64,000 nucleotides of DNA from Asticcacaulis endophyticus (lineage in GTDB: Bacteria; Pseudomonadota; Alphaproteobacteria; Caulobacterales; Caulobacteraceae): positions 1,293,722 through 1,357,721 of the forward strand of contig NZ_BMZB01000001.1 in assembly GCF_014652575.1 (NCBI RefSeq). Reading direction: 5' to 3'. The notes under the pieces are model-generated. The model saw nothing but the letters and a program-made list of their open reading frames with translations. It did not search any database and was not told where the DNA came from. The first letter of the stretch is position 1; every line of letters begins with the position of its first letter. Both the position numbers and the translations under genes were made by a program. Shown in pieces: positions 34,290-64,000 of this stretch.

Positions 34290-34748
34290 GTTTCTCTACC
34301 TTGCCTTTTTATGCTCGCTTATCGCGAGTCATTATATATGAAATTGTGGACGGCTACCTTTAATCGGCAAAAAACGATGATTTTGTCCAGTCTAAATGAC
34401 TGCAAATACACAATTTTTCCCAAATTGTGGGGTTTTCAGGAAACAGTTTAGGCTTCCCCCGCCGCTCAATTTTGTCAACATCCCCTATTGGACACGCTTT
34501 TCAATGATAGCGCTATCAATTTTGGCTTGCTGTTTCAATTTTTGATGATACATAAATTTGTAAGATAAAATAGCTCGTCGCGTGCCAAATAAATAATACC
34601 GCGGCAAGGGCAAACATCGGGAAGAGATGGTTAAGGGACATCCCACTTGCGGCCGAGAGCGCAACGCATGACGTTGGCGCATGCTTGGCGTATACTCCCG
34701 GCAAACAAATGATGACTTCAGAGGGAGCCGGGCAACCGGAAATTCAGT
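34290..34748. promoter_or_regulatory. AT-rich divergent control region between the GntR gene and the GH35-GH31 operon
   Basis: This 459-base stretch holds no convincing gene. It contains a TCATTATATATGAAA element at 34329-34343 just ahead of the GntR gene. A perfect inverted repeat CACAATTT-N5-AAATTGTG lies at 34409-34429 and a LacI-type palindrome at 34505-34518. A TTTGTAAGATAAAATA element at 34557-34572 recurs with one change at 45554-45569. A minus-strand frame across 34485-34844 runs through the operator and into the GH35 gene and is not believed. Confidence 0.7.
34505..34518. promoter_or_regulatory. LacI-type operator O1 (perfect 14-bp palindrome)
   Basis: TGATAGCGCTATCA is a perfect palindrome with the central CG typical of LacI-family operators. 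It lies about 230 bases before the GH35 start. Near-copies precede xylX (46892) and xylE (51859), and a LacI regulator gene lies in the same island. Confidence 0.75.
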
Positions 34749-36416
34749 ATGATATCCGCACACGCAAAGCTGACGCGTCGTTTTCTGATGGGCGCCTGTG
34801 CCAGCCTGATAGTGGTGTCGTCGGCCATGCCAGCACTGGCGCAAGCCGTAAAAGATCTGCCGCGCATTGAGAAAAAGAACGGCAAGGCGGCGTTGTTTGT
34901 CGATGGCGCACCCTATCTGATCCTGGGGGCGCAGGCCAATAATTCGTCAAACTATCCGTCGCAACTACCCAAGGTCTGGCCCGCGTTAAAGGACATCCAC
35001 GCCAATACGCTGGAGATTCCGGTGGCGTGGGAGCAGATCGAGCCCATGGAAGGTCAGTTCGATTTTTCCTATGTCGATGAACTGGTTAAGCAAGCCCGCG
35101 CGAACAATGTCCGGCTGGTGCTGCTGTGGTTCGGAACGTGGAAAAATACCTCGCCCAACTATACGCCGGACTGGGTGAAGCTGGACAATAAACGCTTCCC
35201 GCGCATCACCAAAAAAGATGGCACGGTGTCTTACTGTCTGTCGCCGATGGAGCGCACGACGCTGGAGGCTGACAAAAAGGCCTTCGTTGCCCTGATGACG
35301 CACCTGAAAAAGATCGACGGCGATCAGCACACGGTCATCATGATCCAGCCGCAGAACGAGAGCGGCACCTATGGTTCGGTGCGCGACTATTCGCCCAAGG
35401 CCGAAAAGGTGTTCGCCGGTCAGGTTCCGGCGGCGCTTCTGAAAAAGAAGGGCATCGCAAAGGGCGGGACTTGGTCGCAAGTCTTTGGTAAACACGCCGA
35501 TGAATATTTCCACGCCTGGCATATCGCCAGCTACATCAATGAGATCGCGGCGGCCGGACGCAAGGTCTATGACCTGCCGATGTTTGTGAACGCGGCCTTA
35601 CGTGAGCCGCTGGTTGAGGTTGGGCCGGAGACCTACTCCTCTGGCGGGCCGACCCATAATGTCATCGACATCTATCAGGCGGCGGCCCCGGCCATAGATA
35701 TCATCGCCCCCGATATCTATAAGCGCGACTCGGCCAATTATGAGGCGGCCCTTAGCCACTACACCAAGCACAACAATCCGCTGTTCGTGCCGGAAACCGG
35801 TTCGGATACCGAATTTGCCCGCTATATTTTCAGTGTCTTCGGGCGTGGCGGGATTGGCTTTGCGCCGTTTGGCATCGACTATACCGGCTACACCAACTAT
35901 CCGCTGGGTGGGCGTCACATCAACCCGGAGGGCCTAAAGCCGTTCCGTGAGAAGTACGCTCTGTTTGCCCCCATGATGCGCGAGTGGGCCAAGATCGCCT
36001 ATGAGAAACCCGTCTGGGGCGTGGCCGAGGCCGATGACCGTAAGCCGCAGTCGATTGACCTTGGCGGCAAATGGAAGGTCGATGTCATGTACGGCGAATG
36101 GCAGTTCGGCCTGACCGAATGGACTTGGCTTGGCAAATTCGACCCCGTACCGGGCCGTGAAAAGCCCAACGGCGGCATCGTCATCGCGCAGCTATCCGAA
36201 GATGAGTTTCTGGTCACCGGCGTCCATGCCCGCCTCAATTTTGGCGTGGGCGACAAGCAAAAAGGTAAGAACCTGATCTTCCGCGCCGTAGAGCAGGGCC
36301 ACTTTGAAAACGGCAAGTGGGTGGTAGATTTCGTCTGGAACGGCGATCAGACCGACTACGGCCTAAACCTGACCGGGGAACCGGCTGTCCTTAAAATCAA
36401 ACTCGCTACCTACTAA
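34749..36416 (+). CDS. Exported beta-galactosidase, GH35 with DUF5597 domain (xyloglucan type)
   Basis: A 555-residue exo-beta-galactosidase. The N-terminus has a TRRFLMG twin-arginine-like start and signal peptide to about residue 32 (MPALAQA). The barrel carries the proposed acid/base E204 in [10 protein letters not shown] and nucleophile E349 in [10 protein letters not shown]-terminal DUF5597 beta domain (from about 390) completes the protein. This layout matches the Cellvibrio xyloglucan beta-galactosidase Bgl35A, which strips beta-1,2-galactose from xyloglucan side chains. The alpha-xylosidase follows 20 bases later, so the two are an operon, apparently under LacI operator O1. Confidence 0.87.
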
Positions 36417-36436
36417 ACGATACAGGGAAGACGATT

Positions 36437-39307
36437 ATGAAACCATTTATGTTTGCCCCCGCTTTTGCAGCCCTGCTGATGGCCAGCACGGCGCTTGCGG
36501 GCTCATTTGAAAAAACCGCCACCGGTATTGTGGTCAAGCCTGACAGCGGCCCGGCCAAAGAAGTGCGTCTTGAGGTCATCAATGACTCGGTCATCCATGT
36601 GCTGGCGGTCGATGATCCGGCCCGCCCGCAAATCGAATCCCTGATGGCGATGGCCAAACCTGCGGGTGCCTTCACGGTCACCGGTGCTGCCGATACGGTC
36701 ACGCTTGATGCCGGTAAGGCCAAGGCGGTGGTGTCCCTGAAAAGCGGGCTGATCACCTTTCAGGACGCCAGCGGCAAGACCCTGCTCGCGCAAGCCAAGG
36801 CCGACATCACACCGGTGCTGGTCGAGGGTAAACCCTATGTCGCCACCCACGCCCAGTTCAATAAGGGCACCTCTGAGGCATTTTATGGTCTGGGCCAGCA
36901 CCAGAACGCCCAGATGAACCTGAACGGTGAAAACGTCGAGTTGCGCCAGCACAATATGGACATCGGTATTCCGTTTGTCGTCTCCGACATGAACTACGGC
37001 ATCCTGTGGGACAATAACTCGGTCACGCGTTTCGGTAACCCGGTCCGTTTTGGTCTGGCCAGCCGTGATCTGAAGCTGACCACACCCGATGGCAAGGCCG
37101 GTTTGACCGCCAAATACTATGTCGACGGTAAGCTGATCCTGACCCGCACTGAGCCCGATGTCCGCTACCAGTTCCTGAGCGATGTCGACAAATATTGGCC
37201 GAAAGATGCCGCCCTGACCAAGGAAGCCACCACCGGCAAAAAGGTCAAGGTCGTCTGGGAAGGCACCATGACCTCCGACCAACCGGGCGTGCATAAGATG
37301 CGCCTGTTCGCGTCCGACTATGCGACCCTTAAAGTGGGGGATAAGACCCTTTTTGATCATGATATCTGGCGCATGGGCTGGAATGCCTGGTACAACAATT
37401 TCGAGCAAAGCTTTGAAGCCGGTAAGCCGGTTCCGCTTAGCCTCGAATGGGAGCCGTCGGGCGGCCTGATTTCCCTGCATCACTCCAACCCGGAACCCGA
37501 TGCCGATAAGCACTCCCTGCGCTTTACCTCTGAGGCGGGCACGGGCCTGAACTACTATTTCATCGCGGGCAAAGATATCGAAGGCGTGATCGGCGGCTAC
37601 CACCACGTCACCGGCACCCCGCCGATGATGCCGAAATGGGCTTACGGTTTCTGGCAGTCGCGTCAGCGTTATGAAACCCAGGATCAGTTGCTGGGTGTGC
37701 TCAAAACCTACCGCGACAACAAATGGCCGATCGACAATATTGTGCAGGACTGGTTCTACTGGCCGGAAGACCAGTGGGGCAGCCATAAGTTCGATCCGAC
37801 CCGCTTCCCTGATCCCAAGGGCTTAGTCGATAAGGTACACGCTCAAAACGCCCGCATCATGATCTCGATCTGGGGCAAGTATTATCCGAACACGGATAAC
37901 TATAAGGAATTTGACGCTAAGGGTTATATGTGGACCAAGAACGTCGAACTGGGCTTCAAGGACTGGGTCGGCCCCGGCTACCTCAACAGCCACTATTCAC
38001 CCTACAACAAAGAAGCCCGCGACATCTATTACCGCCAGATGAAAGAAGGTCTGGTGAAATACGGCTTCGATGCGTGGTGGATGGACAATACAGAGCCTGA
38101 CGTGCGCTCAAACACGTCGCCTGAGGAATTTGCCGAACTGATCACCCCGACCCAGATGGGGCCGGGCGCGCTGGTGCACAACGCCTATGCGACCATGAAC
38201 ACGCAGGCCATGTACGACGGCCTTAAGGTCGATCAGCCCGATACCCGCCAGTTCATCCTGACCCGCTCAGGCTTTGCCGGTGTTCAGCGCAACGCCGCGG
38301 CCCTGTGGTCCGGCGATGTCGTCGGCACCTGGGATAACCTGTACGATCAGATCTCAGCCGGTGTGCAGACGGGCTTCTCCGGTGTGCCCAACTGGACCCA
38401 CGACATTGGCGGTTATGCGCAGGAAACACGCTTTCAGGGTAATGATGTCGGTGGCTTGCAGGAAAACCGTGCGGCTGGTGGTACCGGCACGGCTGAGGAC
38501 CTGAAAGAATGGCGTGAGCTGAACCAGCGCTGGTGGCAGTTCGGCACCTTCTCGCCGCTGATGCGCTCGCACGGCGAAGGGGTGAAGCGCGAAATCCACG
38601 AAATCTCGCCCGAAGGCTCGCCCATGCGCGTCAACATGGTGTGGTTCCTGGAACTGCGCTACCGCTTGATGCCGTACATCTATTCGGCGGCGGCTGACAG
38701 CCACTATGCTTCGGCCCCGATCATGCGCGGCTTTGCCCTTGATTTCCCGACGGACGCCAAGGCTAAGAACGTCAACGACCAATACATGTTCGGTAAGTCG
38801 ATCCTGGTCGCCCCGGTGACTAAGTATCAGGCCACGTCGCGCAGCGTCTACCTGCCGATGGGCGCTGACTGGTATAATGCCTATACCGGCGCGAAAACCA
38901 CAGGCGGTCAGACGATCACGGTTGATGCGCCGCTCGATCAGATCCCGCTGTTTGTCAAATCCGGTGCGATCGTGCCTATGGGCCCGGTCATGCAGTATGT
39001 TGATGAAACACCGGACGCGCCGCTGACCCTCAATGTCTATACCGGCGCTGATGGCAGCTACAGCCTCTATGAAGATGATGGTGTGTCTAACGCCTACATC
39101 GAGGGCCAGTTCAGCCGTATCCCGTTCGCCTATAACGACAAGACCGGTGAACTGAAGATCGGTGCCCGTTCGGGCAGCTATAAGGGCATGGTCGCCAGCC
39201 GCACGTTCAAGGTCCGCTTTATCAAGGACGGCGGCAAAACCACCGACTTTGACGCAGCCGACCGGACCGTGACCTATACGGGTAAGGCTGTGACCGTGAA
39301 ACGATAA
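36437..39307 (+). CDS. Exported alpha-xylosidase, GH31 with inserted PA14 domain
   Basis: A 956-residue GH31 enzyme with a Sec signal peptide (MKPFMFAPAFAALLMASTALA). The N-terminal beta-sandwich is interrupted by a PA14-like module (about residues 225-350, with VHKMRLFASDYATLKVGDKTLF). The (beta/alpha)8 barrel follows, with nucleophile D550 (WWMDNTEPD) and acid/base D627 (LWSGDVVGTW). The PA14 insertion is the hallmark of the Cellvibrio xyloglucan alpha-xylosidase Xyl31A, which removes unsubstituted terminal xylose from xyloglucan oligosaccharides. It sits directly downstream of the GH35 gene, the same pair order as in known xyloglucan loci. A GGGAAG site precedes the ATG. Confidence 0.92.
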   Translation: MKPFMFAPAFAALLMASTALAGSFEKTATGIVVKPDSGPAKEVRLEVINDSVIHVLAVDDPARPQIESLMAMAKPAGAFTVTGAADTVTLDAGKAKAVVSLKSGLITFQDASGKTLLAQAKADITPVLVEGKPYVATHAQFNKGTSEAFYGLGQHQNAQMNLNGENVELRQHNMDIGIPFVVSDMNYGILWDNNSVTRFGNPVRFGLASRDLKLTTPDGKAGLTAKYYVDGKLILTRTEPDVRYQFLSDVDKYWPKDAALTKEATTGKKVKVVWEGTMTSDQPGVHKMRLFASDYATLKVGDKTLFDHDIWRMGWNAWYNNFEQSFEAGKPVPLSLEWEPSGGLISLHHSNPEPDADKHSLRFTSEAGTGLNYYFIAGKDIEGVIGGYHHVTGTPPMMPKWAYGFWQSRQRYETQDQLLGVLKTYRDNKWPIDNIVQDWFYWPEDQWGSHKFDPTRFPDPKGLVDKVHAQNARIMISIWGKYYPNTDNYKEFDAKGYMWTKNVELGFKDWVGPGYLNSHYSPYNKEARDIYYRQMKEGLVKYGFDAWWMDNTEPDVRSNTSPEEFAELITPTQMGPGALVHNAYATMNTQAMYDGLKVDQPDTRQFILTRSGFAGVQRNAAALWSGDVVGTWDNLYDQISAGVQTGFSGVPNWTHDIGGYAQETRFQGNDVGGLQENRAAGGTGTAEDLKEWRELNQRWWQFGTFSPLMRSHGEGVKREIHEISPEGSPMRVNMVWFLELRYRLMPYIYSAAADSHYASAPIMRGFALDFPTDAKAKNVNDQYMFGKSILVAPVTKYQATSRSVYLPMGADWYNAYTGAKTTGGQTITVDAPLDQIPLFVKSGAIVPMGPVMQYVDETPDAPLTLNVYTGADGSYSLYEDDGVSNAYIEGQFSRIPFAYNDKTGELKIGARSGSYKGMVASRTFKVRFIKDGGKTTDFDAADRTVTYTGKAVTVKR

Positions 39308-39464: not shown

Positions 39465-39465
39465 G

Positions 39466-39680: not shown

Positions 39681-41315
39681 CTAAACCAGAGTCTGGCCGG
39701 TGATTTTCAGCACCGGCGTTGCGGCCGGACGCTGAGCGGGCAGTTTCACATTTAGTCCGTCTGGAGACAATTCAAATTCCAGAGGTTGAGCTATACCCAA
39801 AAGTTCAACACGTTCAATAGTGGCTTTGGAAGTGAGCGTATTTTTTGCGAACGTGGTTATGAGCATCTGCCCGCCTTCAGGCCAGTCCTGAGCCAGCGCA
39901 TAAAGCGCGCCGTCCTTGGTGGTGAAGCGGATATCCTGAGCGGTAAAGGGTTTGGCGGCGGCTTCGTTCTGGTGTCCGGCACCGACTTCGGTCGGGCCTT
40001 CCCCAAACGTATGCCACGCGCGGGTGCCAAATATGGCCTCGCCATTAACCGCCATCCACGCCGCCATGTCCTCTAGGATCACCACTTCTTTCTCATCGAT
40101 TTCGCCATTGCCGCGAATCGGGATCGACAGCAACAGGTTGCCATTCTTTGAGACCGCATCGGTCAGCAACTGAATGACGTGCTTGGCGGACTTATAGCCA
40201 TCGCGCTCATAAAGGCCGCGATCATAGTGCCAGTTGCCGATGCAGGTGCAGGTCTGCCAGTATTCGGGGCGCAAGTACGCTGACGCCCCGCGCTCGACAT
40301 TGTTGGTCAGGGCCTTGGCCTGCGTGGCATCCAGCTTATTGCCGGTGACTACGGCCTCATTCTGTCCGTGCCATTTGGTGCTCTGGTTGTAGAGATAGGC
40401 CGTCGCCTCAAGGCCGACCCCGGCTAATGGGGTGACATAGTTGTCCATATAGACAAAATCGGGTTTGTACTTATCCATCAGGTCGTTCTGACGGGCCAGC
40501 CATTGCTTTGCGTAATAGGGGTTATTTTTCGGCTGAGCTTCGGTCCATTCGCCGGAGGTTTTGTCGTTAAACGCCTGCATGTCTTTGATGGACGTAATGC
40601 CATCGGGCGGCACCATGCCTTCGGCCCGTCCGGTGTAAAGCTCCTGCGGATCAAGGCCGTCCCACCATGTACCCTTGCCGTCCTTTTTGGTCAGGCGGAA
40701 GGCGTCATAGCGCACGCCCTTAAGCGGTCCCTCGGCGTCATAGCCGTAAGCCGTCTGCCACCAGTGCCAGGCGTGGGCCGAGTGATTGGAGACGCCGAAC
40801 CGTAAGCCTTCGGCCTTGACCAGCTTTTCCCATGTCCCGACGATATCTTTCTTGGGGCCGACGCGGACGCTGTTCCATGCGTGATATTTGGAGTCGTACA
40901 GATCGAGATTGTCGTGGTGGTTGGCCATAGCGACGATATATTTCGCGCCCGCCGCCTTATAGAGCTTGGTCAGGGTTTCCGGGTGCCACTTATCGGCTTT
41001 CCACTGACCGATGATGTCCAGAAAGCCGGTTTTGCTCGGGTGACCATAATTTTTGACGTGGTGGTCGTAGTAGAAATTACCCTGCATATACATCTGACGG
41101 CCGTACCAGTCGCCGGCTTCGGGCACGCACTGTGGCCCCCAGTGCGCCCAGATGCCGAGTTTGGCGTCCTTGAACCATTCCGGGGTCTGGTAGTTCTGAG
41201 ACAGAGACTCCCAGGTCGGTTTGAATTTTACCGGTTTCGCACTAGCCGTGGGTGCTATTGCGGCGGCAGTCAGCGCCGAGCCGGAGGCCAGAAGATCGCG
41301 ACGGGTGGTGGTCAT
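39681..41315 (-). CDS. Exported alpha-L-fucosidase, GH29
   Basis: A 544-residue GH29 enzyme. The N-terminus TTTRRDLLASG is a Tat signal. The barrel begins WFKDAKLGIWAHWGPQCVPE and carries VAMANHHDNLDLYDS. The catalytic nucleophile is predicted as D291 in DFVYMDNYVT. A beta-sandwich of about 100 residues follows. It removes terminal fucose, which in xyloglucan caps the galactose side chain. Known Proteobacterial xyloglucan loci often use GH95 for this step, so a GH29 here is a variation. Its ATG overlaps the stop of the acetylesterase gene by four bases. Confidence 0.9.
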   Translation of the reverse strand: MTTTRRDLLASGSALTAAAIAPTASAKPVKFKPTWESLSQNYQTPEWFKDAKLGIWAHWGPQCVPEAGDWYGRQMYMQGNFYYDHHVKNYGHPSKTGFLDIIGQWKADKWHPETLTKLYKAAGAKYIVAMANHHDNLDLYDSKYHAWNSVRVGPKKDIVGTWEKLVKAEGLRFGVSNHSAHAWHWWQTAYGYDAEGPLKGVRYDAFRLTKKDGKGTWWDGLDPQELYTGRAEGMVPPDGITSIKDMQAFNDKTSGEWTEAQPKNNPYYAKQWLARQNDLMDKYKPDFVYMDNYVTPLAGVGLEATAYLYNQSTKWHGQNEAVVTGNKLDATQAKALTNNVERGASAYLRPEYWQTCTCIGNWHYDRGLYERDGYKSAKHVIQLLTDAVSKNGNLLLSIPIRGNGEIDEKEVVILEDMAAWMAVNGEAIFGTRAWHTFGEGPTEVGAGHQNEAAAKPFTAQDIRFTTKDGALYALAQDWPEGGQMLITTFAKNTLTSKATIERVELLGIAQPLEFELSPDGLNVKLPAQRPAATPVLKITGQTLV

Positions 41316-46891: not shown

Positions 46892-46905
46892 TGGTAGCGC
46901 TATCA
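46892..46905. promoter_or_regulatory. LacI-type operator O2 before xylX
   Basis: TGGTAGCGCTATCA differs from a perfect palindrome at one base pair and matches O1 at 13 of 14 positions. It lies 124 bases before the xylX start, and the flanking A and T extend the symmetry. Confidence 0.75.
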
Positions 46906-48226: not shown

Positions 48227-48256
48227 TTATAATAATACAGAAAGTGAATGGAACCG

Positions 48257-49006: not shown

Positions 49007-49101
49007 GGATTTCACCGAAAAGTTTGGCGCGGCGCGCCAATACGTTTTTGGTGGGCCCTAAAAAAGAATAAAAACGCGGGCCAGAAATGCAGGACGGAAA
49101 C

Positions 49102-51858: not shown

Positions 51859-51872
51859 TGACAGCGCTGCCA
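51859..51872. promoter_or_regulatory. LacI-type operator O3 before the xylose transporter
   Basis: TGACAGCGCTGCCA has one mismatched pair. The flanking AA and TT extend the symmetry to 18 bases. It lies 160 bases before xylE and shares the AGCGCT core with O1 and O2. Confidence 0.65.
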
Positions 51873-55666: not shown

Positions 55667-56917
55667 TCAGGCTCGTTTCAAAGGTAAACAGGCGGGGCCA
55701 ATTGGCTCAAACGCCTTATAGGTGAGGATAAATTCCTGATGGCCGAGGGCTTCGGATTTGGTGCGGGCACCGGCAGCGACCTTAAGCACCAGATCGGTGA
55801 TCTCAGAGCCCACTTCATCCAGCGTGGCGCGGCCTTCCATGATCCGTCCGGCATCGATATCCATGTCCTCAGCCAGTTTGCGGAAGGTCTCCGGATTGGC
55901 GCAAATCTTGATCACCGGCGAAATGGCTGAGCCCACGACCGAACCTCTGCCCGTGGTAAACAGGGTTATGTGCGCCCCACAGGCGATCAGTTCGACAATC
56001 TCAGCATTGTCGGAGATATTGGGAAAGCCAAAACGCGGCTCACCATCGGGCACCACATCCAGCAGGTAAAGCCCGCCGGTCGGGGGCTGATCGCCCGGTT
56101 TCAGAATCCCGCAGATCGGGGCTGAGCCTGACTTGGAATAGGCCCCCATCGACTTTTCTTCCTGGGTGGTCAGTCCGCCTTCGGCATTGCCGGGCGCGAA
56201 CGAGCCAAAGCCCATGATGGTGTAATAGCGTTCGGCCTTTTCGACGCTGGCCTCTAACGCGGCCCCCAGCTCCGGTGTGACCGCCCGGTCGGCCATGATC
56301 TTTTCGCAGCCGACCAGTTCGCCGGTTTCCTCAAAGATACAGGCCGCCCCCGCAGCCCCCAAAGCATCGAACGCGCGCCCGACGGCAGGGTTGGCCGTGA
56401 TACCGGAGGTGCCGTCCGAACCGCCGCAGATGGTGCCGATAATCAACTCCGATATGTCCATATCCACGCGCGGGGTCTGGGCGGCAATGGCCTGCATCCG
56501 TTTGACCGCTTCGACGCCTTTTTGAATGGTCGAGGCGGTGCCGCCGGAATTCTGGATCACCAGGGTTTCGACCGGACGACCAGAAGCTTCGATGGTGGTT
56601 TTGAGCTGTTCACGGTTAAAGCTTTCGCAGCCGAGCGAGATCAGCAGCACACCGCCGACATTGGGGTGGGTGGTCAGGGCCTGCATCATCTTGAAGGCAT
56701 AGGCATTGGGATAGCAGCCCGGAAAGCCGATTAGATGAACTTCGGGCGCATCGCCGATGGTCGCTGACGCCAACTGCTCATAGTCCGTAAAGCGGTTGAC
56801 GATGCCGCGCGCGACATGGTGGGCACATTCGACCAGATAGGCGACGGCAATGACATTGCGGATGCCTTTGCGGCCATCGGGCCTGAGATAAGCGGTGATG
56901 GCGGGGGTATTTAACAT
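55667..56917 (-). CDS. UxaA-family dehydratase, large (catalytic) subunit; probable L-fuconate dehydratase
   Basis: A 416-residue protein matching the C-terminal catalytic part of altronate/galactarate dehydratases. It has RKGIRNVIAVAYLVECAHHVA at the start, LIGFPGCYPN near residue 62, GTICGGSDGTSGITANPA near 165 and SGSAPICGILKPGD. The small SAF-domain part is a separate gene (57939-58229). Iron is the usual cofactor, via conserved histidines and cysteines. In Campylobacter, a two-gene UxaA pair belongs to the L-fucose locus, which supports L-fuconate as substrate. ATG 56917 overlaps the dehydrogenase stop by seven bases. Confidence 0.82.
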   Translation of the reverse strand: MLNTPAITAYLRPDGRKGIRNVIAVAYLVECAHHVARGIVNRFTDYEQLASATIGDAPEVHLIGFPGCYPNAYAFKMMQALTTHPNVGGVLLISLGCESFNREQLKTTIEASGRPVETLVIQNSGGTASTIQKGVEAVKRMQAIAAQTPRVDMDISELIIGTICGGSDGTSGITANPAVGRAFDALGAAGAACIFEETGELVGCEKIMADRAVTPELGAALEASVEKAERYYTIMGFGSFAPGNAEGGLTTQEEKSMGAYSKSGSAPICGILKPGDQPPTGGLYLLDVVPDGEPRFGFPNISDNAEIVELIACGAHITLFTTGRGSVVGSAISPVIKICANPETFRKLAEDMDIDAGRIMEGRATLDEVGSEITDLVLKVAAGARTKSEALGHQEFILTYKAFEPIGPACLPLKRA

Positions 56918-57939
56918 TCGACCAGAGCCTTGATAACGCCTGCCGATGGTTCGATCCATTGCGGCAAAATGTCGGGGAGTTCGGAAAGCTTCGCACGGTG
57001 GGTATTGAGCGCCGCGGTGGGAACGTGGCCCGCGATCATGGCGGCCAGCACGCCTTTGAAATCTTCCGGGGTGGCGTTGCGGCTGCCCATCAGGGTGGTT
57101 TCGCGCTTATGAAATTCGGGGTCGTTGAAGGTGATGTCGGCGGCCACAACCGAGATCAGCACATAGGTGCCGCCGTGGCCGACATAGCCAAACCCAGCCT
57201 CCATAGCCTTGGGGGCACCGGTCGCGTCAAACACCACATCGTAAAAATCGCCGCCGGTCAGTTGTGATAACTGGTCGCGGGTATCGTCGCCCACCAACAC
57301 GCCATGATCGGCCTTAAGTTCGCGCAGGCAGAAATCAATGCGTGGCTGGCGGCTGTCGATGACGGTGACCTCGGCCCCTCTGAGTTTGGCAAACAGGGCC
57401 GTGGCGATGCCGATGGGCCCGACCCCGACGACCAACGCCTTATGACCGGACTGCTCTTTTTGACTGGTTTGCACTTGGGCGCGGCGGACGGCATGGTGAC
57501 CGATGGCCAGAAACTCCAGCATGGCGGCTTCATCCAGACCGATGCCGGTGGCCTTAAACACAAAGCCTTCGGGGACGCTGATATATTCGCACAGCCCGCC
57601 GTCCATATGGACACCCAGAACCCGGATATTCATGCAGCAATTGCCCTTACCCTTACGGCAGGCCGCGCAGTGGCCACACGACATATAGGGCATGATATAG
57701 ACCACATCGCCGGGGCTGAGGTCTGAGCCTGCGGGGGCCTCGGCCACCTCACCGGACAGTTCATGGCCCATGACGCGCGGGTAGGTCAGGAACGGCTGAG
57801 TGCCCTTATAGATATGCATGTCCGTGCCGCAGATGCCGACGCGGCGGACGCGCACCAGCACCTCACCTTCGGCGCGTACAGGCCGGGGGCGTTGCGTGTG
57901 AACCAGCTTGCCGGGGGCTTCACAAATTACGGTATCCAT
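56911..57939 (-). CDS. Zinc-dependent alcohol dehydrogenase (sorbitol/galactonate dehydrogenase-like)
   Basis: A 342-residue medium-chain dehydrogenase. The catalytic zinc region is RVGICGTDMHIY (residues about 34-45) with MGHELSGEV. The structural zinc cysteines are in CGHCAACRKGKGNC, and the NAD fold begins ALVVGVGPIGIA. Members of this branch oxidise sugar acids and polyols, for example L-galactonate 5-dehydrogenase. It is inserted between the two dehydratase subunit genes with one- and seven-base overlaps, so it must act in the same pathway. Whether it oxidises L-fuconate, its keto-deoxy product or a downstream alcohol is unclear. Confidence 0.8.
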   Translation of the reverse strand: MDTVICEAPGKLVHTQRPRPVRAEGEVLVRVRRVGICGTDMHIYKGTQPFLTYPRVMGHELSGEVAEAPAGSDLSPGDVVYIMPYMSCGHCAACRKGKGNCCMNIRVLGVHMDGGLCEYISVPEGFVFKATGIGLDEAAMLEFLAIGHHAVRRAQVQTSQKEQSGHKALVVGVGPIGIATALFAKLRGAEVTVIDSRQPRIDFCLRELKADHGVLVGDDTRDQLSQLTGGDFYDVVFDATGAPKAMEAGFGYVGHGGTYVLISVVAADITFNDPEFHKRETTLMGSRNATPEDFKGVLAAMIAGHVPTAALNTHRAKLSELPDILPQWIEPSAGVIKALVEC

Positions 57940-58229
57940 CAGCTTACGGCCTTACGGGTGTGGGAGGGGATATAGTCGCTTTTCATATTGTGCAGATGGA
58001 CGTGATCGCCGCGTTTGGCGTCCGCCGTCATGGAGCCAATCGGCGCACCGTACTTCAGGATCTTATCACCGGCCTGCAAATCGCCGCGCGCGACCTTGTG
58101 GCCGACCTCAATGGCGGCGGGGATGGTGACGGTATCGCCGTCAATGACCGTTTCAAAGCCCGCCGCAATGGGGGCGCGGCACACCAGCACATTGTCGTCG
58201 GGATGCAAAAGGATAAGGGGGGTAATCAT
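57939..58229 (-). CDS. UxaA-family dehydratase, small SAF-domain subunit
   Basis: A 96-residue SAF domain corresponding to the N-terminal 90 residues of full-length UxaA. Landmarks are LLHPDDNVLVC, VEVGHK-like IEVGHKVARGDLQAGDKILKYGAPIG, and HVHLHNMKSDY. In UxaA this domain caps the active site. It is coupled to the aldo/keto reductase gene upstream by an ATGA overlap and to the dehydrogenase gene downstream by a one-base TGATG overlap. Confidence 0.85.
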   Translation of the reverse strand: MITPLILLHPDDNVLVCRAPIAAGFETVIDGDTVTIPAAIEVGHKVARGDLQAGDKILKYGAPIGSMTADAKRGDHVHLHNMKSDYIPSHTRKAVS

Positions 58230-59272
58230 GCGGATACAGGCGTTTCAGGTGTTGGGGCAGGTGTCGGGGCGGCGGATGGTATCAGACCGCCGGTTTTCAG
58301 ATCGTCCCACAGGGCGGGCGGAATTGGGTGGTGAAACAGGGCGGCATTGCTGCGCACTTCATCGGGCGTGGCCATGCCGGGTATGACGCTGGCGACCGCC
58401 GGATGGGCGAGCGGAAACTGCAAGGCCGCCGCCGCCAGAGGGACGTGGTGATCGGCACAAATGGCTTCGATGCGGTGCACCCGCGCGATGATTTCCGGCG
58501 GGGCGGGGGCGTAGTCATAAAACGGCGTGTGGCCATTGCCTACGCCAGTAATCAGTATGCCGGAATTGAACGGCCCGCCCAGAATGATCGAGACATTGCG
58601 TGCCACGCAGCGGGGCAGGAATGCTTCAAGTGGTGCCTGTTCCAGCAGGGTATAGCGGCCCGCCAGCAGGATAGCGTCCAGATCGGCATGATCCAGCACA
58701 TTGTCACAAATTTCGGTCTCATTGACCCCCAGCCCGATGGCGCCGATGCGACCTTCGGATTTCAGCGTTTGCATGGCTTTGAGGCCACCACTAAGGAACG
58801 CTTTCAGGTGATAATCATGGTCATCGCCATGGGTCAGTTGTCCCAGATCATGGGCCAGCAGAATATCGATATGATCGCGTTTCAGCCGTGTCAGGCTCGA
58901 CTCAAACGACCGCATCACGCCGTCATAGCTGTAGTCGAAATGCTCCTCGAACGGGTCGCCATCGACAAAGCCGTGGCGCTGGGTGCCGGACGGGGGCGGG
59001 GCGATGGGCGTCAGGACACGCCCGACCTTGGTGGAGACGATCACGTCATGCGGCAGAACGGCCCCTAAGCGACGCTCAGACAGGCCGTGGCCATAGCGCG
59101 GGGCGGTGTCGAAATAGCGAATACCCGCCTCAAGGGCCTTGGTCACGCAGGCGCTCGCCGCCTCATCGCCCAGCGGACGATAAAGATTGCCTATGGCGGC
59201 CGCCCCGAACCCAAGGGCAGGGACGCGCACACTGGTGCGGCCAATTAAATTCAAGGTGTCAGCCCCTGACAT
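58226..59272 (-). CDS. Aldo/keto reductase, probable L-fucose 1-dehydrogenase
   Basis: A 348-residue AKR of the D-threo-aldose / L-fucose dehydrogenase branch, which oxidises L-fucose to L-fuconolactone. The catalytic residues are visible: D and Y in FDTAPRYGHGLSE (near 54-61), K in VSTKVGR and H in ILLAHDLG. The last 20 residues are a proline/alanine/threonine tail (APTPAPTPETP) not typical of the family. It is the first gene of the operon that continues through both dehydratase subunits, and a strong palindrome lies directly upstream. Confidence 0.85.
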   Translation of the reverse strand: MSGADTLNLIGRTSVRVPALGFGAAAIGNLYRPLGDEAASACVTKALEAGIRYFDTAPRYGHGLSERRLGAVLPHDVIVSTKVGRVLTPIAPPPSGTQRHGFVDGDPFEEHFDYSYDGVMRSFESSLTRLKRDHIDILLAHDLGQLTHGDDHDYHLKAFLSGGLKAMQTLKSEGRIGAIGLGVNETEICDNVLDHADLDAILLAGRYTLLEQAPLEAFLPRCVARNVSIILGGPFNSGILITGVGNGHTPFYDYAPAPPEIIARVHRIEAICADHHVPLAAAALQFPLAHPAVASVIPGMATPDEVRSNAALFHHPIPPALWDDLKTGGLIPSAAPTPAPTPETPVSA

Positions 59273-59291
59273 TATGACGTTTCCGGTTAGG

Positions 59292-59309: not shown

Positions 59310-59384
59310 TCATTCTTACTGATAAAAGTACGCTTTGGGCGCGCACAACTCAAGGCTTTTGTACGCTTACCGATAAAAAGCCGC

Positions 59385-60206
59385 CTATCGGATGGGGATG
59401 CGTTCGACGGTATCAACGCCGCCGAGCGATTTCGATATGGTCTGAACGGCGGTCTGGAGTTTGCGGGTGGCGTCCTCAAGGCTTTCGCTGCCGAGCGAGC
59501 GGATATAGGGGATGGTCAGGGCGGCGATGACGGTACCGTCGCTGAAGATCGGGCAGGAAATATCGGTAATCCCGTCGGTGAAATCGGAGCGGCGCTGTAC
59601 ATAGTTATTTTTCTGAGCAAACTGGCACAGCTCATCAAAGGTACGCCAGGTTTCGGGCGGAGTCTCCGCCATCAGTTCGGCGCGCCAGGCTTCTTTCATC
59701 TTGTGCGGCTGAAAGCTGAACAGGGTGATGCCGGAGGTCGATTTCACAACGGGCGCCTGATGGCCGACCCTTACCGAAAAGCCGAGATCACCGGGCGCTT
59801 CGACACGGGCAATGACGACGATCTGGTTGTCGGAGGCGATGGCGATATGACACGACTGGCGGGTCGATTCGCTCAAAGCCTGCATGATCGGCATAGCGCT
59901 GGCCAAAAGGTTCTGGCTGGGGCCGCGGCTCATGCCAAGCGAGAACAGCTTATTGGTCAGTTCCAGCCCGTCGCCGCGCAGGGCCGGGGCGACATAGCCG
60001 CGGTTTTCCAGCACCTGCACCATGCGGAACAGTTCGCTAACCGAGCGGTCAAGGTGGGCCGATATCTGCGACAGGGTCAGCGGGCGTTTATGGGCCGCCA
60101 GCAGTTCCAGCACATCAAGGCCTTTTTCTAACGCCGGGGCGCGGTATTTCAGGACGGTGGTTTCGCCCTCTTTATCGTCGTCACGCAGATTTTGGTGCAT
60201 ATTCAT
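59385..60206 (-). CDS. IclR-family transcriptional regulator of fucose genes
   Basis: A 273-residue regulator. The winged helix spans about residues 25-85 (LEKGLDVLELLAAHKRPLTLSQIS, RMVQVLENRGYV). The IclR effector domain covers 95-265, with SCHIAIASDNQIVVIARVE and SDFTDGITDISCPIF. IclR regulators also accompany the L-fucose locus in Campylobacter. Its start overlaps the fuconolactonase stop by four bases, placing it in the fucP-lactonase-iclR operon. The ligand is likely L-fucose or a pathway acid. Confidence 0.9.
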   Translation of the reverse strand: MNMHQNLRDDDKEGETTVLKYRAPALEKGLDVLELLAAHKRPLTLSQISAHLDRSVSELFRMVQVLENRGYVAPALRGDGLELTNKLFSLGMSRGPSQNLLASAMPIMQALSESTRQSCHIAIASDNQIVVIARVEAPGDLGFSVRVGHQAPVVKSTSGITLFSFQPHKMKEAWRAELMAETPPETWRTFDELCQFAQKNNYVQRRSDFTDGITDISCPIFSDGTVIAALTIPYIRSLGSESLEDATRKLQTAVQTISKSLGGVDTVERIPIR

Positions 60207-61066
60207 AGTGTTACCCCTGTTTCAGACTTAATTTTATAAAAGGTTTTGGCATTGGTGCTGAAGATTTTATCTGTGCTGTGGGTCGGCATGGCCCGCAGAT
60301 GGTTATGAACCTGATCGAACCATGACCGGTAAGACTGGCACAGATTGACGACCGGCCAGTCCGAGCCCCACATCAGTCGATCCGGCCCGAACTGCTCAAG
60401 CAGGTGATCCGCATAGGGCCACAGATCATCGATCGGCTGACCCGGCATCATTTCGGTGACCAGCCCTGACAACTTGGCATGGACATTGGGGTTACGGGCA
60501 ATAGCAGTGATCAGTTCGCGCCAGTGCCGCGTCTCTTCCGGATGGCTGTGGCGGCGGGCAATCGGGGGTTTGGCACCGTGATCAATGACGATGCGTAAAC
60601 CCGGATAGGTCTTCGCCAGCCGGTCAATCGCCGGCAGGTGGCGCGCAAAGATCAGGGCGTCGAAACTTAGATCATGTTGGGTCAGCGCCTCAAGCGCCGG
60701 TGCCACGACGGGCTGATTGATCCAGTCATCATCGGCAAGGGATTGCAGCATGGGCCGCACGCCTTTGAGTTTGGGCTGCTGCGCCAGATGGGCGATGCGG
60801 TCTGCGGCACCCCCGGCCAGCATATCGGCCCAGCCGACGACGCCTAAGATCAGATTATCATTGGCCGCGACCTCAAGCAGCCAATCTGTGTCGGCGTCAT
60901 GAGCTTGCGACTGCACCACTATGGTGCCGGACAGGCTGACGCCCACCGCCTCCGACCTCAGATCATCGAGCCCGAAATCCCGGTAGATCGGCCCAAGGCC
61001 AGAGGTTGGCCATTCATGGCCATTGCGTCCGATCTGCCAGAAATGATGGTGGGCGTCGATGACCAT
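60203..61066 (-). CDS. Amidohydrolase-family L-fuconolactonase
   Basis: A 287-residue metal-dependent TIM-barrel hydrolase of the COG3618 type. It begins VIDAHHHFWQIGRNGHEWP, has VIDHGAKPPIA in the middle and ends with the WGSDWPVVNLC motif carrying the catalytic aspartate. Relatives hydrolyse L-fucono- or L-rhamnono-lactones, and the neighbours point to L-fuconolactone. It lies seven bases after fucP and overlaps iclR by four bases. Confidence 0.87.
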   Translation of the reverse strand: MVIDAHHHFWQIGRNGHEWPTSGLGPIYRDFGLDDLRSEAVGVSLSGTIVVQSQAHDADTDWLLEVAANDNLILGVVGWADMLAGGAADRIAHLAQQPKLKGVRPMLQSLADDDWINQPVVAPALEALTQHDLSFDALIFARHLPAIDRLAKTYPGLRIVIDHGAKPPIARRHSHPEETRHWRELITAIARNPNVHAKLSGLVTEMMPGQPIDDLWPYADHLLEQFGPDRLMWGSDWPVVNLCQSYRSWFDQVHNHLRAMPTHSTDKIFSTNAKTFYKIKSETGVTL

Positions 61067-61073
61067 CCGGCCC

Positions 61074-62378
61074 TCAGTGTGTGGTGGCGACAGGCGTCGC
61101 GCTAAGGGGGCGCTTGGGCGATTTCAGTCCGTACCAGGCGATAACCGCAAAGCACAGGGCCGGGATGAAAATGGAGGTGCGGATATGAGACGCATCCGAA
61201 ATCAACCCCATCAGCGGCGGCAGCAAAGCCCCGCTGACGATGCTCATGACCAGAAGGGATGAGCCGGTCTTGGTCAGCGGCCCCAGGCCATCGACCGCTG
61301 TGGCGAAAATGGTCGGGAACATAATCGACATAAAGAACGAGGTGGCAGTTAAAGCATAGAGCCCGTAAAGCCCGCCGACGGCTGCGGCATAGGCGCACAA
61401 GCCGATATTGATGATCGCAAAGACCGCCAGAATCCGCAGCGGCGACAGGCGGCTCATCAGGGCCGTGCCGACAAACCGGCCGACAGCGAACAGAATCAGA
61501 GCGATAAACAGGAAGTTGGCGGCCTCTTTTTCCGGCATAGCCAGTTCGGACTGGGCATAGCGGATCATATAGCTCCAGATGCCGACCTGCGCCCCGACAT
61601 AGAAAAACTGCGCCATCACGCCAAACAGGAAATGTGGTTTGGCAAACAGGCCGCTTAAGGAACGGCCGGCAGAGACGGTTTCACCAGTATGCTCGTGGGT
61701 GTTTTCGGTCGCCGCCGCCGGGAACTTCGACAGGGCCACCAGCACCGCCCAAGCGATAATAATGGCACCGATGATCAGATACGGCCCCTGAACGGCCTGA
61801 GATTCGGAAATGTAAAAGGCCAGACGAGCTTGATCAGACAGGGCGCTCAAAGACGATTCGTTATGCTCGACCCCGGACAGTATATACTCCTTACCGACCC
61901 AGATGCCGGTAAGCGAGCCCAGCGGATTAAAGGCTTGCGCCAGATTAAGCCGGAAGGCGGCTTTTTCGGGCGGGCCCAGCACGGTGATCAGCGGATTGGC
62001 TGAGGTCTCTAAAAACGCCAGACCCGACGCGATCACGAAAAGCGCGCCTAAGAACCAGCTATATTGGTGATTGTCAGCGGCGGGATAAAACAGAAAAGCC
62101 CCGGCGGCAAACAGCAACAGGCCCGCGATAACCGCCGCCTTATAGCCAAAGCGGCGCATGAACAGCCCGGCCGGAATGGCCAGCAAGAAATAGCCCATGT
62201 AAAACGCCGACTGCACCAGACCCGATTGCAGGTCGGTCAGGCTGAACGCCTTTTTAAACTGGGGGATCAGCACATCATTGAGATTGTTGGCCATGCCCCA
62301 GAAAAAGAACAGACTGGTAATCAGAATAAGGGGCCAGAGCGCACCCGTTGCCGGGCGCGACATGTCAGATGCGCGCAT
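61074..62378 (-). CDS. fucP: L-fucose:H+ symporter, FucP-type MFS
   Basis: A 434-residue MFS permease with about 12 helices. FucP-family features are FFFWGMANNLNDVLIPQFKKAF in helix 1, QSAFYMGYFLLAIPAGLFMRRFGYK in helix 2, FLETSANPLITVLG in helix 4, and RLNLAQAFNPLGSL after it. It imports L-fucose and possibly related sugars. A GAGG site is seven bases before the ATG. It is first in the fucP-lactonase-iclR operon and diverges from the mutarotase gene across 162 bases. Confidence 0.88.
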   Translation of the reverse strand: MRASDMSRPATGALWPLILITSLFFFWGMANNLNDVLIPQFKKAFSLTDLQSGLVQSAFYMGYFLLAIPAGLFMRRFGYKAAVIAGLLLFAAGAFLFYPAADNHQYSWFLGALFVIASGLAFLETSANPLITVLGPPEKAAFRLNLAQAFNPLGSLTGIWVGKEYILSGVEHNESSLSALSDQARLAFYISESQAVQGPYLIIGAIIIAWAVLVALSKFPAAATENTHEHTGETVSAGRSLSGLFAKPHFLFGVMAQFFYVGAQVGIWSYMIRYAQSELAMPEKEAANFLFIALILFAVGRFVGTALMSRLSPLRILAVFAIINIGLCAYAAAVGGLYGLYALTATSFFMSIMFPTIFATAVDGLGPLTKTGSSLLVMSIVSGALLPPLMGLISDASHIRTSIFIPALCFAVIAWYGLKSPKRPLSATPVATTH

Positions 62379-62540
62379 GAAATATCCTCAACCTGTATGG
62401 GCGTTATTGTTTAAACTCGCCCTTTGTCAGACAGGACATCACATATAAATCAAGCCGTCAAATATGAAATTTACATTGTTGTCAAAAAGTGTAGGCGAGG
62501 ATAAAAATACCACGCATAACCCTAAAAACGGAGACGCCAC

Positions 62541-62894
62541 ATGACCTTAACCCGATATTGTTTCGCGCTTGATCTGCACAATGATGCCGCTTTGATTGAG
62601 CGTTATAAGGTCTGGCATCAGCCGGGGCAGGTGCCTGCGGCGATCGTGGCTTCCATCCGTGACGCCGATATCCGCAGCCTCGAAATCTGGCAGGCGGGTG
62701 ACCGCATGTTCATGATTATGGAGACGGGGCCAGAATTTTCAGCCGATGCCAAGGCGGCAGCGGATGCCGCTTCAGAAGACGTTCAGGCGTGGGAGCGGCT
62801 GATGTGGGAGTTTCAGAAACCCCTGCCATTTGCCAAGGCGGGCGAAAAGTGGGTTGAAATGACCCGTATTTTCGACCTTATTCAGCAGCCTTAG
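62541..62894 (+). CDS. L-fucose/L-rhamnose mutarotase (DUF718 family)
   Basis: A 117-residue ferredoxin-like-fold mutarotase. It has RYCFALDLHNDAALIERYKVWH at the N-terminus and IRSLEIWQAGDRMFMIMETG in the middle, then a helical end with WERLMWEFQKPLP. The family catalyses anomer exchange of L-rhamnose, and some members serve L-fucose in non-phosphorylating pathways. Being divergent from fucP, L-fucose is the likely substrate. A GGAG site precedes the ATG. Confidence 0.85.
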   Translation: MTLTRYCFALDLHNDAALIERYKVWHQPGQVPAAIVASIRDADIRSLEIWQAGDRMFMIMETGPEFSADAKAAADAASEDVQAWERLMWEFQKPLPFAKAGEKWVEMTRIFDLIQQP

Positions 62895-63058
62895 ATGAGG
62901 GCTGCAAAAAAAGCGCTTCACAGTTCCGGTCTGCCGGGATATCTGACGAAACAAATTGCCGGACAAATAGACCGGGTATTTATATGATAATTGCCTTGGG
63001 CCCCGTGTTCGGCTAAGGGGCATGGCAGCAGGTTTTAAAAGGTGCAGGGAAAGCGTTG

Positions 63059-64000
63059 ATGTTCGGTTTCGGTAAATCAAAAGCACAAAAAGGGGCAACC
63101 CAAACTCAGACGCTCAAAATCGGTCTGATCGGTTTAGGCAAGATCGCGGTCGATCAGCATATCCCGTCCATTCGCGCCAATAAAAACCTTGAACTGGTCG
63201 CCGGTGCCAGTCCCGGTTCGCGTCCGCAAGGGGTTGTGGCCTATAATACTCTGGCGGAAATGCTGAAAGCGCACCCGGAAATCGAAGCGGTCGCTGTCTG
63301 TACGCCGCCGCAGGTGCGGTTGAGCGTCGCGCGCCAAGTCATTGAGGCCGGTCGCCACGTTTTCCTTGAAAAGCCACCCGCAGCGACCATTGGCGAAGCG
63401 GAACTGATCCGTGATCTGGCTAAGGCTAAAGGCGTGTCGGCCCTGGCGAGTTGGCACTCACGCTATGCCCCGGCGGTCGAAGCGACCCGCAAGTGGATGG
63501 GTGAGCGTCCGATCAAGTCGGTCCATATAGTCTGGAAAGAAAATGTTCGTCAGTGGCATCCGGGTCAGACCTGGATCTTTGAGGCCGGTGGCATGGGCGT
63601 GTTTGATCCGGGTATCAATTCGTTGTCGATCCTGACGCGGATTGTGCGCGATACTGTGATTGTTAAATCAGCCGATCTGCATTTCCCGTCCAATTGTCAG
63701 GCCCCGATTCAGGTCGAAATGAACATGCAGACCGACAATGGTTTGGCGATCCGCGCCGACTATGACTTTCTGCAAACCGGCGTGCAGACCTGGAGCATTT
63801 TTGTCGAGTCTGAGTCAGGTGAAAAGCTTGTCCTGTCCATGGGCGGCACCGAGCTTGAGATTGACGGCAAGACGATCATCAAGGAAAAAGAGGCTGAATA
63901 TTCAGGCCTTTATGCTCACTTCTACGATCTGGTCAAAAGCGGCACCTCGGATGTCGACCTGAGCCCGCTGCGGGTCGTGGCGGATGCCTTCATGGTCGGC
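63059..64000 (+). CDS. Gfo/Idh/MocA-family D-galactose / L-arabinose 1-dehydrogenase (runs off the window end)
   Basis: The visible 314 residues cover almost the whole expected length, with the stop just beyond the window. The NAD(P) site is IGLIGLGKIAVDQHIP near residue 19, and the EKP catalytic motif is in HVFLEKPPAAT near 104. WHSRYAPAVE, RQWHPGQTWIFEAGGMGVFDPGIN and the C-terminal YAHFYDLVKSGTSDVDLSPLRVVADAF match Azospirillum L-arabinose and rhizobial D-galactose 1-dehydrogenases. The product would be galactono- or arabinonolactone. Galactose freed by GH35 and GH27 makes D-galactose the best guess. The 164 bases upstream show no terminator or clear operator. Confidence 0.83.
   Translation, partial: MFGFGKSKAQKGATQTQTLKIGLIGLGKIAVDQHIPSIRANKNLELVAGASPGSRPQGVVAYNTLAEMLKAHPEIEAVAVCTPPQVRLSVARQVIEAGRHVFLEKPPAATIGEAELIRDLAKAKGVSALASWHSRYAPAVEATRKWMGERPIKSVHIVWKENVRQWHPGQTWIFEAGGMGVFDPGINSLSILTRIVRDTVIVKSADLHFPSNCQAPIQVEMNMQTDNGLAIRADYDFLQTGVQTWSIFVESESGEKLVLSMGGTELEIDGKTIIKEKEAEYSGLYAHFYDLVKSGTSDVDLSPLRVVADAFMVG

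Follow-up and report, generated by a model that had tools for sequence, protein, structure and literature searches.

A predicted xyloglucan utilization locus of Asticcacaulis endophyticus joined to oxidative xylose and fucose genes and to candidate xyl-box operators

We analysed a 64,000-nucleotide part of the Asticcacaulis endophyticus chromosome (C1:1293722-1357721; hereafter the window), which carries an island of predicted genes for xyloglucan breakdown and for the oxidative catabolism of xylose and fucose. Families were assigned through Pfam, NCBIfam and PDB sequence searches, and 48 open reading frames (ORFs) of the window were scanned. The genes that an earlier note on this DNA had named (GH74, an acetylesterase, GH29, GH35, GH31 with PA14, xylX, xylB, xylC, xylD and a fucose set with FucP) were all found where it had placed them. 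The xyloglucan and xylose genes, with the candidate operators among them, are laid out as follows.

33582..34289, minus strand: GntR/FCD-family regulator, divergent from GH35 (Pfam; adjoins GH35 in relatives)
34505..34518, unstranded: xyl-box TGATAGCGCTATCA, predicted XylR operator between the divergent GntR and GH35 genes (exact match; footprint)
34749..36416, plus strand: GH35 beta-galactosidase of Bgl35A type with a signal peptide-like N-terminus (PDB 3u7v, 5jaw, 4d1i, 7kmn; N-terminus)
36437..39307, plus strand: GH31 alpha-xylosidase of Xyl31A type with a PA14 insert (Pfam; PDB 2xvg, 7kmp, 5jou)
39681..41315, minus strand: GH29 alpha-L-fucosidase or alpha-L-galactosidase (Pfam; PDB 7snk, 7ljj)
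41312..43261, minus strand: CE20-type acetylesterase (Pfam SASA and, below cut-off, BetaGal_ABD2; PDB 9ega, 9h4u, 7kmm)
43271..45457, minus strand: GH74 xyloglucanase (BNR repeats; PDB GH74 xyloglucanases, e.g. 2cn2 and 5fkr)
45401..45414, unstranded: xyl-box-like TGTGAGCGCTAACA in the GH74 signal-peptide codons (M-L-A-L-T); weak evidence
45742..46794, plus strand: LacI-family regulator, proposed XylR (Pfam; likeness to the Caulobacter sp. AP07 LacI)
46892..46905, unstranded: xyl-box TGGTAGCGCTATCA before xylX
~47030..48226, plus strand: xylX, 2-keto-3-deoxypentonate dehydratase type with a fumarylacetoacetate hydrolase (FAA-hydrolase) fold (Pfam; PDB 9kkt, 2q18)
48248..49006, plus strand: xylB, D-xylose 1-dehydrogenase (NCBIfam NF053674 equivalog, over cut-off)
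49087..50001, plus strand: xylC, lactonase of the SGL family (Pfam)
~50003..51781, plus strand: xylD, sugar-acid dehydratase (IlvD/EDD), start approximate (Pfam; NF009560; ortholog in 25/25 genomes)
51859..51872, unstranded: operator-like TGACAGCGCTGCCA before xylE, C-type
52032..53468, plus strand: XylE-type D-xylose transporter (NF007484, over cut-off)
53567..54472, plus strand: aldose 1-epimerase, start picked by eye (Pfam)

Cellvibrio Bgl35A and Xyl31A are among the closest solved relatives of the GH35 and GH31 proteins. The top PDB matches of GH35, whose Pfam score lay under the cut-off, were 3u7v from Caulobacter and Bgl35A (5jaw, 4d1i), and that of GH31 was Xyl31A (2xvg), its PA14 Pfam match being below cut-off. 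PDB entries 7kmm, 7kmn and 7kmp are enzymes that we take to come from the xyloglucan utilization locus (XyGUL) of Xanthomonas. The closest named records to the CE20 gene belong to Asticcacaulis sp. UBA2476 (88%) and A. machinosus (84%). A repeat search of the island gave weak, chance-like families only.

The published xyl-box, given as TGGTAGCGCTAACA in PMC10380989 and PMC7748154, is a feature of the XylR regulon and was found upstream of island genes. We counted it in 25 Asticcacaulis genomes, using only matches with a recoverable 5′ end under a per-gene identity threshold, and n therefore varies by gene. With at most one mismatch, a box was present upstream of xylX in 25/25 genomes (21 exact), xylE in 23/24 (9 exact), GH35 in 15/15 (7 exact) and GH74 in 7/7 (6 exact). 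The corresponding count was 0/178 for the upstream regions of 12 other genes of the same regions (fucP 23, rhaM 18, IclR 24, aldose epimerase 24, Gfo/Idh 23, GH31 15, GH29 19, GH27 6, GlnA 7, SpoU 7, DAO 7 and ClpB 5), several of which are operon-internal, so that their upstream DNA is largely coding. Dinucleotide shuffles yielded a box in 20/1000, 13/960, 15/600 and 7/280 cases for xylX, xylE, GH35 and GH74, respectively. Because their intergenic regions are shared with CE20/GH74 and GH35, the LacI gene (13/24, 6 exact) and the GntR gene (15/15) were kept out of both groups; CE20, with a near-box in 6/20 upstream regions, was counted apart.

The 15 GH35 promoters are those fetched from the 24 genomes with a GH35 match, and GH35 carries the box even where it lies far from the island; in two of these genomes (G109 and G114) the box falls shortly after the projected start. 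In an alignment of eight of the 15, from which the most divergent (G109, G114 and G145) and four close copies or neighbours were left out, 13 of the 14 box columns were invariant, compared with 43 of 536 columns overall. At GH74, the box is clearly upstream only in G085 and G075.

Within the A. endophyticus genome, TGNNAGCGCTNNCA has 27 exact sites, whereas the reversed pattern has 3. The T-type form TGNTAGCGCTANCA accounts for seven of the 27: the GH35 and xylX sites, one site with no clear target, and others that lie before or across the starts of a GH39/GH43 pair, of two TonB-receptor-like genes and of a major facilitator superfamily (MFS) gene. In Caulobacter sp. AP07, a LacI encoded close to the xyl genes has 51% identity to the island LacI and contains the same SPMTVSRVIN segment; the shorter SPMTVSRV also occurs in LacI proteins encoded near xyl genes of Steroidobacter and Brevundimonas. 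The LacI of contig 10, from a region with TGACAGCGCTGTCA sites, has SIKTVSRV instead. Comparisons of this kind support, without proving, an assignment of the T-type sites to XylR, and the xylose-sensing switch probably also controls the genes that would dismantle xyloglucan. In the contig 10 region (C10 14001-34000), a glucose-6-phosphate dehydrogenase gene and a GH3 gene lie close to this second LacI gene and the TGACAGCGCTGTCA-type sites, and the set is probably a separate regulon of glucose/cellobiose type.

Linkage was scored in the same 25 genomes, a distance being measurable only between genes of a single fetched contig. At 25 kb or less from xylX we found uxaA2 of the fucose set in 20 genomes, CE20 in 20, GH29 in 19, GH74 in 7 and GH35 in 5. 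As to the genomes lacking the uxaA2-xylX linkage, the fucose set lies 430-500 kb from the xyl genes on one contig in G075 and G119, contig ends break the region in G129, the sets are on separate contigs in G150, and G094 has no uxaA2 match. The core of fucose genes, xylose genes, CE20 and GH29 is the usual arrangement across the genus. Chance adjacency, which the earlier note had named as a possible refutation, is ruled out by this genus-wide conservation, and the search for the same gene set in other Caulobacteraceae that it had called for bears the linkage out: the core is kept across a diverged genus and recurs in Brevundimonas.

GH35-GH31 lie in the island in five genomes, and these form one clade (FastTree of xylX, xylB and xylD; support 1.000). 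SpoU-GlnA-DAO, the left-hand flank of the GH35 block in this window, lies 6-11 kb from a GH31-GH35-GntR-GH27 block in 2 of the 10 other fetched GH35 loci (G109 and G114); it was not present in the other eight, within the flanks fetched. We therefore read the island of this window as a likely fusion of the GH35-GH31 block with the core of xyl, fucose, CE20 and GH29 genes. In the five-genome clade, a GH27 alpha-galactosidase and an NAD-dependent epimerase (31096-33539 in this window) stand beside the GntR-GH35-GH31 block. To our knowledge, alpha-galactose is not a usual side chain of xyloglucan.

Ten Brevundimonas genomes were queried and six, chosen as contig numbers suggested linkage, were fetched; in these six the XyGUL and the xyl operon are ~18-50 kb apart. 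In Brevundimonas sp. Root1279, the order is fucose set, GH74-GH29-CE20-GH31-GH35, transporter and xyl operon over a span of ~45 kb. A second Brevundimonas genome, metagenome-assembled, joins all three sets, with the xyl operon ~50 kb from GH35, and four further genomes link the xyl operon to the xyloglucan locus. Linkage was accordingly shown in 6/10. The xylX gene is ~1 Mb from CE20 in G154 and on another contig in G158 and G159, and the contig identity of G155 was left unchecked. A close fucose dehydratase (~80%) was found in 2/10 queried genomes, and the fucose set is linked too in two of the six fetched. Exact boxes precede xylX in 6/6 and the xyloglucan transporter in 5/6 of the fetched regions, with two more exact sites in G156. 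Seven of ten Brevundimonas GH35 loci have an exact box ~3.1-3.3 kb upstream of GH35, at the transporter start. In the regions fetched from Caulobacter (G151 and G152), linkage was not seen.

Among the ORFs scanned in the window, none was recognised as a TonB-dependent transporter; the gene for one begins 4.1 kb beyond the window end (genome 1361866-1364913, equivalent to window positions 68145-71192). Its product is ~50% identical to the transporter directly before GH35 in 4/6 Brevundimonas xyloglucan loci and 37-39% identical in the other two. The gene is preceded by two sites, a C-type site that matches exactly and a T-type site that differs at one position. Both kinds of site occur at the transporter in 6/7 genomes, one of them with a C-type mismatch too, and G104 has the T-type site alone. 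Beyond the transporter come genes for a tryptophan-halogenase-like protein and for an uncharacterised protein whose N-terminus is similar, then those for an MFS transporter, a ROK kinase and a carboxylesterase.

The right-hand part of the island holds the fucose set and its neighbours.

54931..55665, minus strand: short-chain dehydrogenase/reductase (SDR) of L-2-keto-3-deoxyfuconate (KDF) 4-dehydrogenase type, FucF (PDB 8y4j, 8xwk, 8y11; E ~1e-88)
55667..56959, minus strand: large part of a split UxaA/GarD-type sugar-acid dehydratase, proposed L-fuconate dehydratase (PF20629 and PF04295)
56911..57939, minus strand: zinc alcohol dehydrogenase between the UxaA parts (Pfam; synteny)
57939..58229, minus strand: small part of the split UxaA, 96 amino acids, without a Pfam match (position and conservation)
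58226..59272, minus strand: aldo-keto reductase (AKR), proposed L-fucose/L-galactose 1-dehydrogenase (Pfam; PDB L-galactose dehydrogenases, best E 2e-29)
59385..60206, minus strand: IclR-family regulator, proposed FucR (Pfam)
60203..61066, minus strand: amidohydrolase, proposed L-fuconolactonase (PF04909; NF052480, E 5e-53, under cut-off)
61074..62378, minus strand: FucP L-fucose:H+ symporter (TIGR00885, over cut-off)
62439..62468, minus strand: tandem pair of TTYATATNTGA motifs upstream of fucP/rhaM, candidate FucR site or promoter
62541..62894, plus strand: RhaM-family mutarotase, proposed L-fucose mutarotase (PF05336)
63056..>64000, plus strand: D-galactose/L-arabinose 1-dehydrogenase of the Gfo/Idh/MocA family, ending 33 bases beyond the window (PDB 4ew6, 6jnj)

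The oxidative fucose set of the earlier note is therefore present, with the correction that its dehydratase is of the split UxaA/GarD type and that its lactonase matches the L-fuconolactonase model below cut-off (180.6 bits; cut-off 400 bits). The sole NCBIfam match of the large UxaA part, which has an ortholog in 24/25 genomes, was galactarate dehydratase, far under cut-off. PDB entries 8y4j, 8xwk and 8y11 are L-2-keto-3-deoxyfuconate 4-dehydrogenase according to PMC11199699, and the human protein 2ag5 scores about equally against the FucF-type SDR. The PDB relatives of the Gfo/Idh/MocA enzyme take in L-arabinose dehydrogenases too. The zinc dehydrogenase stands between the UxaA genes in three close genomes (G000, G060 and G149) and was not seen there in the others; a 67% identical homolog lies inside a fucose cluster of Caulobacter sp. 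602-2.

The fucose promoters carry a different element. The sequence TTTCATATTTGAC, here part of the tandem TTYATATNTGA pair, occurs in 23/23 fucP promoters, and the fucose-type motif was found upstream of rhaM in 18/18, the two genes sharing one intergenic region in many genomes. A single-regulon island was considered and is ruled out, as the fucP/rhaM upstream region has this motif and no xyl-box. Two regulons are predicted, one of the xyl-box genes and one of the fucose operon, and the IclR protein may bind the tandem element. An extension of the fucose regulator to GH29 and CE20 is not claimed: exact TTYATATNTGA occurs in 0/20 CE20 and 0/19 GH29 regions, in 3/24 intergenic regions on the LacI side (G085, G029 and G137) and in 1/15 GH35/GntR regions (G109).

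The earlier note had placed the downstream pathways for xylose, fucose and probably galactose in one island, and this does not hold as worded. The gene for alpha-ketoglutarate semialdehyde (KGSA) dehydrogenase, xylA, is absent from the xyl cluster; the best candidate of nine matches lies at C1:453580, ~890 kb away, and is 59% identical to the aldehyde dehydrogenase of a Brevundimonas xyl cluster. The 2,4-diketo-acid hydrolase (FucG) is not in the fucose cluster and lies off-island. Three FAA-family matches were found in the genome, XylX and two others, of which one (C1:228.5 kb) matches the 2,4-didehydro-3-deoxy-L-rhamnonate hydrolase model over cut-off (PDB 8gsr, E 3e-127). At C1 ~226.7-230.7 kb there is an oxidative L-rhamnose operon with a lactonase-family gene, an SDR, the diketo-acid hydrolase and L-rhamnonate dehydratase (over cut-off). 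Because this rhamnose-type hydrolase scores over cut-off and the L-2-keto-3-deoxyfuconate 4-dehydrogenase yields a compound that L-rhamnose oxidation also forms (PMC11199699), the fucose route probably borrows it. As to galactose, only the Gfo/Idh enzyme of the first step was found; no later step of galactose oxidation was detected among the window ORFs scanned.

Published work already describes a xyloglucan locus with xylose catabolism adjoining. As described in PMC8245568, the Xanthomonas XyGUL has two transporters, GH74, GH31, GH35, GH95 and CE20; xylulokinase, xylose isomerase and an MFS transporter adjoin it, and all are induced by xyloglucan oligosaccharides. The statement of the earlier note that described loci generally encode breakdown and uptake is not supported, given this locus. 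Both that locus (X. citri XAC1768-1777) and the one here link GH74, GH31, GH35 and CE20, and in both xylose catabolism and an MFS transporter adjoin. TonB transporters lie within the Xanthomonas locus, and the homolog here starts past the window. The loci differ in that Xanthomonas has GH95, whereas GH29 is present here with no GH95 among the ORFs scanned; and in that isomerase and xylulokinase adjoin there, instead of the oxidative xylXBCD here. The oxidative fucose set and the xyl-boxes also distinguish the locus here. According to PMC7748154, the X. campestris xylE locus with xylA1 has no xyl-box and X. citri xylA1 has none immediately upstream; the xylA1 operon is equated with the xyloglucan operon in PMC10380989.

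The Cellvibrio japonicus XyGUL resembles the locus here in its GH35 (Bgl35A), GH31 (Xyl31A) and TonB-dependent receptor, and differs in having a GH95 fucosidase and no sugar catabolism in the description of PMC4285296, compared with GH29 and catabolic genes here; PMC8245568 gives it as unlinked to endoxyloglucanase or esterase genes. Polysaccharide utilization loci of Bacteroidetes have a SusC/SusD pair, whereas no SusD family was found among the window ORFs scanned, the DNA beyond the window not being searched. The XylR regulon of Caulobacter crescentus, which is cited in PMC10380989 and PMC1790865, shares with the locus here a LacI-type XylR, a palindromic xyl-box and xylX, xylB, xylC and xylD, and in C. 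crescentus TonB receptors are xylose-induced. Compared with C. crescentus, xylA is outside the operon here and the predicted regulon reaches the xyloglucan set. The Weimberg cluster of C. crescentus has the order xylXABCD, and xylX, xylB, xylC and xylD are all present here. The non-phosphorylating L-fucose route 3 (PMC11199699 and PMC6336799) has the same steps of mutarotase, 1-dehydrogenase, lactonase, dehydratase and SDR-type KDF dehydrogenase, the match to the KDF 4-dehydrogenase (FucF) being by sequence only; here, in contrast, the dehydratase is of split UxaA type and the final hydrolase is outside the cluster. The fuconate dehydratase of the fucose cluster in PMC6336799 is compared there with the enolase-type enzyme of X. 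campestris. We found no report of a locus of this kind in Asticcacaulis, Caulobacter or Brevundimonas in the open-access literature, which does not prove that none exists. In PMC5834485, GH29 and GH35 transcripts of Brevundimonas are reported on sugarcane bagasse, and the passages on them show no locus structure. What is new here is the lineage-specific fusion of two blocks, the oxidative routes, the fucose set and the xyl-box wiring.

We interpret the island as a XyGUL of Caulobacteraceae that is wired to D-xylose, with a probability of roughly 0.7. Gene families, synteny and motifs carry this interpretation, and from them we infer substrates, locations, binding and induction. GH74 would cut xyloglucan outside the cell and the TonB-dependent transporter past the window would import the oligosaccharides, from which CE20, GH29, GH35 and GH31 would remove acetate, fucose, galactose and xylose, respectively, in the periplasm. 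Xylose would be taken up by XylE and fucose by FucP. XylB, XylC, XylD and XylX would convert xylose to ketoglutarate semialdehyde, to be finished by the off-island dehydrogenase, and fucose would be oxidised by the AKR, the lactonase, the split UxaA and then the SDR, with the off-island hydrolase common to the rhamnose operon completing the route. Released xylose would relieve XylR at the xyl-boxes before xylX, xylE, GH35-GH31 and the transporter, and probably also at the GH74/CE20 operon, whereas the fucose genes would form the second, IclR-dependent regulon. The GH35-GH31 block, carrying the same operator elsewhere, would have joined the core in one clade.

Several findings weigh against parts of this interpretation. 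With at most one mismatch, no xyl-box was found upstream of fucP (0/23) or rhaM (0/18); because the fucose operon lacks it, the island is not one regulon. The "single evolved unit" of the earlier note is not supported: core linkage is conserved and the glycosidase block is connected with the xylose genes through promoter motifs, but the fucose operon has its own motif and GH35-GH31 are in the island in one clade only. The regulon is not specific to xyloglucan, since XylR-type sites are found before GH39/GH43 genes too. Among the 13 examined genomes without GH74, only six have a near-box at CE20, one of them beyond the projected start, and the GH74 box of the five-genome clade is inside signal-peptide codons, where coding constraint could explain its conservation; the site is possibly an intragenic operator or a coding coincidence. 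Three Brevundimonas GH35 loci (L021, L029 and L084) have no exact box upstream. The island LacI does not reach the cut-off of any NCBIfam equivalog, the operators of LacI paralogs are similar, and a second LacI may use the C-type sites, namely the xylE site and one transporter site. The transporter is separated from the island by pyruvate kinase and GT87 genes and occurs at this place in the fetched regions of only 7/25 Asticcacaulis genomes. Finally, GH29 is as similar to L-galactosidases as to fucosidases in its PDB matches.

This last point bears on the alternative that GH29 and the UxaA/AKR set handle L-galactose, or L-galactose and L-fucose, rather than fucose alone. The PDB neighbours of GH29 include exo-alpha-L-galactosidases, the AKR matches L-galactose dehydrogenases, and a D-arabinonate dehydratase of the UxaA/GarD superfamily acts weakly on L-fuconate and L-galactonate (PMC6336799); the FucP equivalog, the RhaM-family mutarotase and the KDF-dehydrogenase-type SDR speak for fucose instead, and we consider the alternative unlikely. 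Slightly less probable is that the xylose operon, the fucose operon and the glycosidases are independent loci, neighbours by chance and each with its own substrate. Such independence would fit the location of GH35-GH31 elsewhere in most relatives, the different motif on the fucose genes and the distant sets of G075 and G119, but CE20, GH29, xyl and fucose genes are together in ~20/25 genomes of a diverged genus and again in Brevundimonas, and the xylX operator is common to GH35 wherever examined (15 promoters). We give least credence to a locus serving xylan or mixed hemicellulose, in which xyl-boxes mark xylose-responsive genes and GH74, CE20 and GH29 are accessory. The GH31 and GH35 families include other activities, and XylR-type sites at the GH39/GH43 pair and two TonB-receptor-like genes of the same genome would agree with it; the solved relatives, however, include Cellvibrio Xyl31A and Bgl35A and GH74 xyloglucanases, and no GH10, GH11 or GH67 was found among the 48 window ORFs scanned.

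A XyGUL wired to D-xylose would mean that linkage and a common operator connect a polymer-degrading locus with the breakdown of the side-chain sugars it releases, with non-phosphorylating routes replacing the phosphorylating ones known from Xanthomonas. We lean, by a narrow margin, towards a broader proposal: XylR would double as a xyloglucan regulator in Caulobacteraceae, its boxes putting both the transporter and the glycosidases under D-xylose control in at least two genera, and clustering would have followed co-regulation, two operator-sharing blocks fusing in one Asticcacaulis clade into an island that also has oxidative fucose catabolism. The Asticcacaulis genomes have the co-regulated blocks both apart and joined, which makes the idea of co-regulation before clustering directly testable and, if it is true, provides a natural test case for regulon-first gene cluster evolution. 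The proposal predicts that xylose signals xyloglucan and not xylan alone.

Related arrangements were seen outside the family. In contigs of Steroidobacter and Povalibacter (L067, L077 and L082), LacI-xyl genes lie ~10 kb or less from CE20, an association that is possibly independent or transferred. A contig labelled as the cyanobacterium Pseudanabaena biceps (L089), which may be contamination, has GH35-GH31-CE20 genes 43-53% identical to those of the island. At eight Sphingomonas loci (L061, L064, L072, L073, L075, L078, L079 and L080), an exact TGGTAGCGCTCACA lies ~130 bases or less upstream of the CE20 match, which suggests that CE20 may be under XylR-type control in Sphingomonas too.

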